Source: Ferruginibacter lapsinanis | GTDB lineage: Bacteria > Bacteroidota > Bacteroidia > Chitinophagales > Chitinophagaceae | Assembly: GCF_020783315.1 (NCBI RefSeq) | Contig: NZ_CP086063.1 | Span: 992,001 to 1,056,000, forward strand | Reading direction: 5' to 3' | DNA length: 64,000 nt | Shown: positions 29,120-31,246 of the stretch, piece after piece | How positions within the stretch are numbered: position 1 is the stretch's first letter | Layout of the letters: every line of letters starts with the position of its first letter | Made by a program: the position numbers and the translations under genes | The notes under the pieces: generated by a model | The model's database searches: none | What the model was told of the DNA's origin: nothing | What the model saw: only the letters and a program-made list of their open reading frames with translations

Positions 29120-29202
29120 ACAGAAATTCTTCCTCAAACAATGTCGAACAATTTCTACAACAATCTCATCATTTTTATTACATTTTTTCTTTTGTTCCAA
29201 GC

Positions 29203-29342
29203 CGATATTTGTATTGTCAATTATCCAACTATCCAAATGAAAACAACGCAATAATCCAAATCCTTGAAAATTGACGATGTAGTAGAAAATGAGACTACCA
29301 AAATCCTGTTCTAAGAAAAACCTTCAGCAATGAGGGTTTTTT
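29203..29342 (+). ncRNA. Candidate small RNA, copy 1 of a tandem pair
   Basis: A 140-base non-coding unit. It opens with a 30-base segment (29208-29237) that is identical in copy 2 exactly 220 bases later, preceded by GATATTTG, one base away from the TAnnTTTG element. An internal stem GTAGT/ACTAC follows at about 29279-29298. It ends in a 9-base perfect hairpin, AAACCTTCA-GCAA-TGAGGGTTT, and a T-run: a good intrinsic terminator. The only ATG frame is five codons and is absent from copy 2. Not matched by me to any known RNA family. Confidence 0.5.
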
Positions 29343-29422
29343 ATTTTACAAATTGCCGGTAAATAGTATAATTTCTACCCCAATCGCATTGTTTTAATGA
29401 CATTTAATCCTTTGAATCAAAC

Positions 29423-29566
29423 CGATCTTTGTATTGTCAATTATCCAACTATCCAAACCAAACAATATCCAGATCCGTATCCATGAAAATTGACCAAGTA
29501 GTGATAAAAAGAAACTACCTTAAACCCTGTTTACCAATAAAAAGCCTTCAGTAATGAGGGTTTTTT
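29423..29566 (+). ncRNA. Candidate small RNA, copy 2 of a tandem pair
   Basis: Same architecture as copy 1: GATCTTTG, the identical 30-base segment (29428-29457), a shared GAAAATTGAC core, the GTAGT/ACTAC stem with a changed loop, and the terminator GCCTTCA-GTAA-TGAGGGT followed by TTTTT. The variable parts differ by substitutions while the stems stay pairable (A-T becomes G-T in the terminator stem), which argues for selection on RNA structure. No open reading frame. Confidence 0.5.
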
Positions 29567-29580
29567 GTTTTACAAGTAAT

Positions 29581-29612
29581 AAAAAACCGGAAAGGGTAAT
29601 CCCTTTCCGGTT
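29581..29612 (-). terminator. Terminator of the DUF6515 gene
   Basis: A 12-base perfect stem AACCGGAAAGGG with loop TAAT. On the minus strand it is followed by TTTTTT, 24 bases past the stop of the 29636-30604 gene. Classic intrinsic terminator. Confidence 0.85.
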
Positions 29613-29635
29613 CATTCACATATACGCTAACTTTT

Positions 29636-30769: not shown

Positions 30770-31246
30770 ATGAAAGCAGCCACTATCAGCGAACTGAAAC
30801 AAGAGTTATTGAATATATCGCCTACACAGGTAACGGAGCTTTGCCTGCGACTTGCCCGTTTTAAAAAAGAGAATAAAGAGCTGCTTACATATTTGCTTTT
30901 TGAAGCACATGATACGGACGCTTATATCCAAAGTGTAAAGAAAGAAATGGACGGAGAATTTGAGATAATCAATAAAAGTAATGTATACTTTGTAAAAAAA
31001 ACACTGCGTAAAATTTTACGCATCACCAATAAATTTATTCGGTACAGCAGTTCGGCCACGGTAGAAACTGAATTACTGATCTACTTTTGTGCGTCAGTAA
31101 AAAATTTAGGTAGTACTATCAATAACAATCCCGTCATTAATAATATTTATCAAAATCAATTGAAGAAAATAAACAAAGCGGTAGCCACAATGCACGAAGA
31201 CCTGCAATACGATTATTTGAAAGAAATAAAAAAGCTGAGTGAGTAA
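30770..31246 (+). CDS. Conserved hypothetical helical protein
   Basis: 158 residues, predicted nearly all helical, soluble, with many Lys and Glu. No catalytic motif is visible. The start is a good ATG near the Bacteroidota-like TATTTTAG word. Convergent with the DUF1456 gene 9 bases downstream. I do not recognise the family beyond an impression that similar proteins occur in related genomes. Confidence 0.5.
   Translation: MKAATISELKQELLNISPTQVTELCLRLARFKKENKELLTYLLFEAHDTDAYIQSVKKEMDGEFEIINKSNVYFVKKTLRKILRITNKFIRYSSSATVETELLIYFCASVKNLGSTINNNPVINNIYQNQLKKINKAVATMHEDLQYDYLKEIKKLSE

Follow-up and report, generated by a model that had tools for sequence, protein, structure and literature searches.

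A tandem pair of predicted small-RNA genes in Ferruginibacter lapsinanis, probable members of a multicopy family with short repeated motifs

To our knowledge, few small-RNA families have been described in Bacteroides and their kin. Several kinds of bacterial RNA can be compared with the locus studied here. Protein-titrating RNAs of the CsrB/RsmZ type present GGA motifs in the hairpin loops of a folded RNA; LhrC of Listeria pairs with ribosome binding sites through redundant C-rich motifs; and in type III toxin-antitoxin systems (ToxIN) the RNA is located directly upstream of the toxin gene, with a terminator between them. Among the closest described systems is FopS, which is reported from Bacteroidaceae in 12-15 copies per genome, is 65-70 nt long with one conserved 5′ seed, and is bound by an RRM protein, RRM proteins being the class to which paralogous small RNAs bind in Bacteroides (PMC11697453). 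Bacteroides and kin are said to lack classical RNA chaperones (PMC11697453), and TAnnTTTG is given as the Bacteroidota −7 consensus (PMC7366714).

The window analyzed here is a stretch of 64,000 nt of the F. lapsinanis genome (contig NZ_CP086063.1, positions 992,001 to 1,056,000), in which a preliminary description had marked two structured non-coding units as candidate small-RNA genes. Judged by sequence comparison, the two units are probably tandem paralogues that belong to a small-RNA family present in multiple copies in this genus. Small RNAs with several copies per genome are known as a kind; for the family described here, no Rfam match at threshold and no report in the open-licence literature was found.

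Extent and structure of the two units

The features by which the units had been recognized, i.e., an identical 30-base opening (29208-29237 and 29428-29457), a GAAAATTGAC block, the GTAGT/ACTAC pair and a T-tailed hairpin, are present in both copies. The homology between the copies begins near 29150, about 50 bases upstream of the start first noted, which indicates a joint duplication of promoter, RNA and terminator; the duplicated unit, at about 200 bp, is larger than first described. In a whole-genome search, copy 2 matched copy 1 with 81% identity over about 154 bases (E 2e-31), while the next-best match to the unit in the same genome had an E value of 0.011 over 34 bases. In a tree of 20 family members the two copies are sisters with 99/99 support (the bootstrap is rough and not fully settled), which points to a duplication within the lineage of the window genome.

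By comparison with relatives, each unit consists of a two-site operator (CTACA followed by TTACA or TGACA), a −7 box, a body of about 105 nt and an intrinsic-type terminator, all on the plus strand. In copy 1, the operator (29155-29182) is made of CTACA (29155-29159) and TTACA (29178-29182), which match a looser operator pattern exactly and stand at the same fixed positions as elsewhere in the family. It is followed by the −7 box GATATTTG (29204-29211), which occupies the first positions of the family model R2 and corresponds to the Bacteroidota −7 consensus, by a G-poor predicted RNA body with five AUCC motifs (29212-29315; 95.6 bits with R2, of which it is a training sequence), and by a terminator hairpin with a GCAA (GNRA-type) loop and a T-run (29316-29342). 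In copy 2, the operator (29375-29402) reads CTACC (29375-29379) and TGACA (29398-29402), again an exact match to the looser pattern; the −7 box GATCTTTG (29424-29431), placed by the R2 model positions and the upstream alignment, precedes a predicted body that also has five AUCC motifs (29432-29538; 95.1 bits, likewise a training sequence) and a terminator hairpin with a GUAA loop and a T-run (29539-29566). Both terminators are assigned from folding and from covariation in the family; a simple terminator scan listed neither of them. Counted from the −7 box, the units are 139 and 143 nt long. Another strong hairpin (29584-29613), whose T-run is on the minus strand, separates the second RNA from the DUF6515 gene that converges on it and is the probable terminator of that gene.

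The statement that neither unit has an open reading frame is right in substance. There is a 41-codon TTG frame within copy 2 and a GTG frame overlapping copy 1, and ORF lengths in 41 members do not exceed those in shuffles (mean 20.7 vs. 22.7 codons); coding potential of the units was therefore rejected. The structural part of the description was only partly borne out. With their terminators, the window units are somewhat better folded than their shuffled counterparts (z −2.12 and −1.81). Once the terminator is left off, the body shows no more folding than dinucleotide shuffles do (mean z 0.00 in 41 members and −0.21 in the 20 best-scoring ones). The last 62 nt before the terminator show weak extra structure in the family (mean z −0.78 in the 20 best members and −0.56 in all 41) and none in the window copies (z +0.74 and −0.39). 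Since the bodies show no fold excess over shuffles, conserved stems other than the terminator were rejected. Of the stems described as kept, the terminator indeed covaries; the two others are not common to the family, and only the terminator passed the covariance check. The long stem GTCAATT/AATTGAC has exactly the same letters in both copies and thus shows no covariation. The terminator stem does carry the A-T to G-T change described, but on one side only. Across the family, in an alignment fitted to the terminator structure, 5 of its 11 pairs change on both sides and 98.6% of cells are paired; in the same fitted alignment, with some chance matches included, 22 cells carry both-side changes against 5.2 in shuffles. 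The terminator loop is of the GNRA type in 15 of 17 training sequences.

It had also been considered that both copies might be an untranslated trailer of the upstream oxygenase mRNA. This is disfavoured: the oxygenase is found in none of the relatives' loci compared (tblastn, E ≤ 1e-5), and the operator is conserved.

Relatives in other genomes and the common promoter

A model built from the two window copies only (R1) gave 13 matches at E ≤ 1, spread over 10 of the 97 other genomes searched; all were inside open frames of 168-800 codons and were dropped. Eight scattered matches of an exact 19-base probe in genome contigs, with none in viral contigs, were taken as chance. A DNA search of 93 same-genus genomes yielded 14 with E ≤ 0.001, which matched short pieces of the terminator, and upstream of these pieces a common layout was apparent on reading. 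The model R2 was made of 17 aligned sequences, with only the terminator entered as structure. It found only the two window copies in their own genome, and at least 58 matches of at least 40 bits (17 of them training sequences) in at least 29 of the 93 same-genus genomes, at least 18 of which had two or more such matches. R2 scoring was limited to 34 candidates per genome, so members may be missed. At E ≤ 0.05 something was retrieved in 54 of the 93 genomes, part of it chance, and the other 39 had no R2 match even at this threshold; some of the weak matches are chance terminators. Many species of the genus thus have the family, often in more than one copy. Tandem runs comprise two R2 matches in the window, two in G120, three in G070 and four in G028; the last, in which four matches follow each other within 1 kb (L208, G028:C195, 1687-2674), is the longest array seen. 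Two long members of other species measure 395 nt, with ten AUCC/AUAUCY motifs, and 301 nt, with eight. In the wider taxonomic family, matches at E ≤ 0.01 were obtained in 19 of 244 genomes (13 of 101 genera), five of them of the same genus and 14 among the 239 outside it. Sixteen of these matches (15 outside the genus, one inside) were read; three look real, two in G369 and one in G367.

As the preliminary description suspected, no known family accounts for the units: at the gathering threshold, Rfam scans with Flavo-1 and 6S among the models gave only a tRNA in the window and nothing in seven loci with other members. Sub-threshold Rfam matches were rejected (the best, STnc150, had E 0.0023 and 26.1 bits vs. 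a gathering score of 60). No report of this small-RNA family was found in the open-licence PubMed Central literature, where CCTTCAGCAATGA occurs in one paper, on endometriosis (PMC11533058).

The family promoter consists of a CTACA-N18-TTACA operator followed by a CATCTTTG-like −7 box. The 90 bases upstream are outside R2 and so independent of it. Among the 43 R2 matches of at least 45 bits, a CTAC-type match is present at −49 from the −7 box in 25, and at −26 likewise in 25. Allowing up to two mismatches of nine, the operator is found at 39 of 56 R2 matches (41 sources) vs. 2.2% of about 20,000 random positions of the same loci; with up to one mismatch, the figures are 31 of 56 and 0.2%. Seventeen of the 56, including 7 of the 20 best-scoring, are without a good operator.

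A tight operator-plus-box pattern, drawn from the family sites themselves, retrieved 19 sites in 17 of 93 same-genus genomes, compared with one for the reversed-pattern control; it did not match the window copies themselves. When the sites were inspected by eye, 14 led into RNA bodies of the family type, two into genes for ECF sigma factors, one into a gene for a response regulator and one, in the window's own genome, into a 37-aa frame; the last one, inside a coding gene, was taken as chance. The looser pattern has five exact matches in the own genome, including both window copies and a site at 3105199, and two of the five look like chance; with one mismatch it is not enriched there (117 sites vs. 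181 in the reversed control). At 3105199 (G000:C1:3105199-3105254, minus strand, locus L240), the operator and −7 box thus recur exactly for a third time in this genome; they are followed by a reading frame for a hydrophobic peptide of 37 aa, and no terminator of the family was seen.

Taken together with the layout of the window copies, the earlier reading of duplicated regulatory RNAs stands, on the evidence of sequence, as far as duplicated small-RNA genes with their own promoter and terminator are concerned; regulation by them would be a further, presumptive step.

Motifs of the predicted RNAs and possible modes of action

The RNA bodies are G-poor (12.5% G) and rich in two short motifs. 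Counted in the same 41 bodies in which the AUCC/UGAAA(A)CC motifs had been noticed, AUCC occurs 113 times (36.3 ± 5.5 in shuffles), UGAAA 56 times (20.3) and the AUCC-UGAAA combination 44 times (4.2); in the 24 bodies outside R2 training the counts are 68 for AUCC and 20 for the composite, vs. 23.0 and 2.6 in shuffles. Thirty-three of the 41 bodies have at least two AUCC motifs and eight have fewer than two, two of these having none. The most enriched 6-mers are TATCCA, ATCCAA, TCCAAT, AATCCT and ATCCTT, followed closely by CTGAAA and GAAACC. GGAU is absent from all 41 bodies, where 4.5 occurrences are expected, so the members avoid pairing with each other through the AUCC motif. Layout, short motifs and operator spacing are common to many species, in contrast to the folding and the remaining sequence. 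The short repeated motifs look as if they were made to catch another molecule.

The most likely explanation of the locus is a co-regulated family of trans-acting small RNAs, whose regulation and mechanism we infer. One regulator would switch all copies on together, and the predicted transcripts would act in trans via two single-stranded motifs, AUCC and UGAAA(A)CC, that each recur along the RNA. An RNA-binding protein may dock on these motifs and be titrated or delivered by the RNAs, a reading to which we give somewhat less than an even chance. The dose would then be set by copy number and repeat number, and the candidates for the bound protein would be the three RRM proteins that the window genome encodes or the product of the nearby gene 30770-31246.

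The motif might just as well serve as a seed for pairing. Small RNAs acting as antisense, which have the small-RNA family reading in common with the explanation above and differ from it in mechanism only, would pair through C-rich AUCC and CCUNUGAAACC stretches with several mRNAs and block translation, as FopS or LhrC do. We consider this a serious possibility, though not the one we would choose. Such families typically consist of multicopy, single-stranded, G-poor RNAs that end in a 3′ terminator, FopS itself is described as a single-stranded 5′ seed plus terminator (PMC11697453), and the lack of GGAU in the bodies is consistent with antisense action as well. However, the enriched words are short and repeated and do not form a single long seed, and the motif is found, in the same sense, in three transcripts of the shared promoter. 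Moreover, at −20 to −4 of 222 mechanically defined ORFs, GGAU occurs 11 times vs. 8.7 expected and AGGA 8 times vs. 11.2, a comparison that addresses a general effect and not single targets; since neither is enriched, general Shine-Dalgarno masking was rejected. We favour titration over antisense action because the conserved units are short, repeated, variable in number and unfolded, and because three of the four promoter-sharing protein-coding transcripts (a small sample without a control) have same-sense AUCC in the leader, namely those of two ECF sigma factors and the 37-aa frame, the leader of the response regulator being without it.

The two ECF sigma factor genes (L268 and L281) belong to two relatives and combine the same promoter with AUCC in the leader, an arrangement that suggests a shared regulon or feedback. 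More speculatively, titration could be part of a genus-wide modular decoy-RNA system, which in its entirety we hold to be rather unlikely: co-induced RNAs with AUCC-UGAAAACC docking arrays (up to about ten) would soak up an RNA-binding protein, mRNAs of the same promoter, including those of ECF sigma factors, would carry the site in their leaders and be released when the RNAs are made, and repeat number and tandem copying would tune the dose. The protein soaked up may be the product of 30770-31246.

Neighbouring genes and comparison with known systems

The gene at 30770-31246 (plus strand) encodes a conserved 158-aa protein. Neither Pfam nor NCBIfam places it in a family, the PDB yields neither a fold match at E ≤ 0.001 nor a sequence match by profile, and no viral relatives were found; a single-sequence model is all helical, with a mean pLDDT of 74. 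Its homologues are spread patchily over the phylum (34 of 395 genomes). In 11 of the 32 genomes compared, a homologue is located directly downstream of a member, at 54-346 nt and on the same strand, with the terminator standing between them. In G025 and G028 (the latter by a partial match) the distance is 1.1-1.8 kb, and in G119 a second, doubtful R2 match is 34 nt upstream of the homologue. At 25 loci with a homologue in other genera, no such RNA was seen by eye in the 420 nt upstream, so the pairing of RNA and gene looks like a feature of this genus. At loci L309 and L310, the homologue follows a gene that reads, by eye, like a cold-shock protein.

The close spacing in 11 genomes would agree with a cis-acting leader or attenuator of the 30770-31246 gene, or with an RNA-plus-protein module of type III toxin-antitoxin layout whose copies have drifted away. 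This reading is nevertheless improbable: in the window 1.2 kb and an opposite-strand gene separate the RNA copies from 30770-31246, many members are found elsewhere, tandem copies with their own promoter and terminator cannot all be leaders, the 25 loci of other genera have the gene without the RNA, and the protein is without a Pfam or NCBIfam match.

DUF6515 genes adjoin a member in the window genome (G000) and in G108 and G020. DUF6515 as a constant neighbour was rejected, since of the 29 same-genus genomes with a DUF6515 match only these three, as far as seen, have a member beside it. The genome with the best DUF6515 match, G117, has no family member, and the window copies do not group with those of G108 and G020 in the tree.

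A selfish or functionless repeat, in which promoter-terminator cassettes spread as a small repetitive element, would suit the tandem and dispersed copies and their patchy occurrence across the genus, but is very improbable, as linkers diverge while motifs are kept, operator spacing is fixed, members occupy the same place in several genomes (beside the 30770-31246 homologue in 11 and beside DUF6515 in three), the window units are unmatched in phage or plasmid records, and the terminator pattern is unmatched in viral contigs.

In the trans-acting small-RNA family that we favour, promoter and motif are defined and the repeat numbers form a natural series, which makes both the transcriptional regulator and the partner directly testable, and the conserved adjacency of the 30770-31246 homologue provides a candidate partner gene.

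Compared with type III toxin-antitoxin systems, the family likewise shows, in 11 genomes, a repeat-bearing RNA, a terminator and then one small protein gene, an arrangement absent in the window; its repeats, however, are short and degenerate, a gene of this kind is missing next to many copies, and the 30770-31246 protein does not match the ToxN/CptN/TenpN kind of toxin (Pfam, NCBIfam, PDB profile, all-helical model). With LhrC it shares tandem and dispersed copies and redundant C-rich single-stranded motifs, but there is no sign of Shine-Dalgarno use in the 222 ORFs tested. As in CsrB/RsmZ-type RNAs, many copies of one short motif, in variable number, are found in an RNA with its own promoter; here, in contrast, the motifs are AUCC and UGAAA in RNA that is low in G, devoid of GGAT in the 41 bodies and without structure excess. 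The family resembles FopS and GibS (PMC11697453, PMC7366714) in being multicopy paralogous small RNAs of the same phylum, with two paralogues in the window genome, in the TAnnTTTG kind of −7 box and in a single-stranded 5′ part followed by a terminator. It differs from FopS, given as 65-70 nt (PMC11697453), in the length of the window units as counted from the −7 box, and, across a family that ranges from about 130 to 395 nt, in its short repeated motifs and two-site operator.
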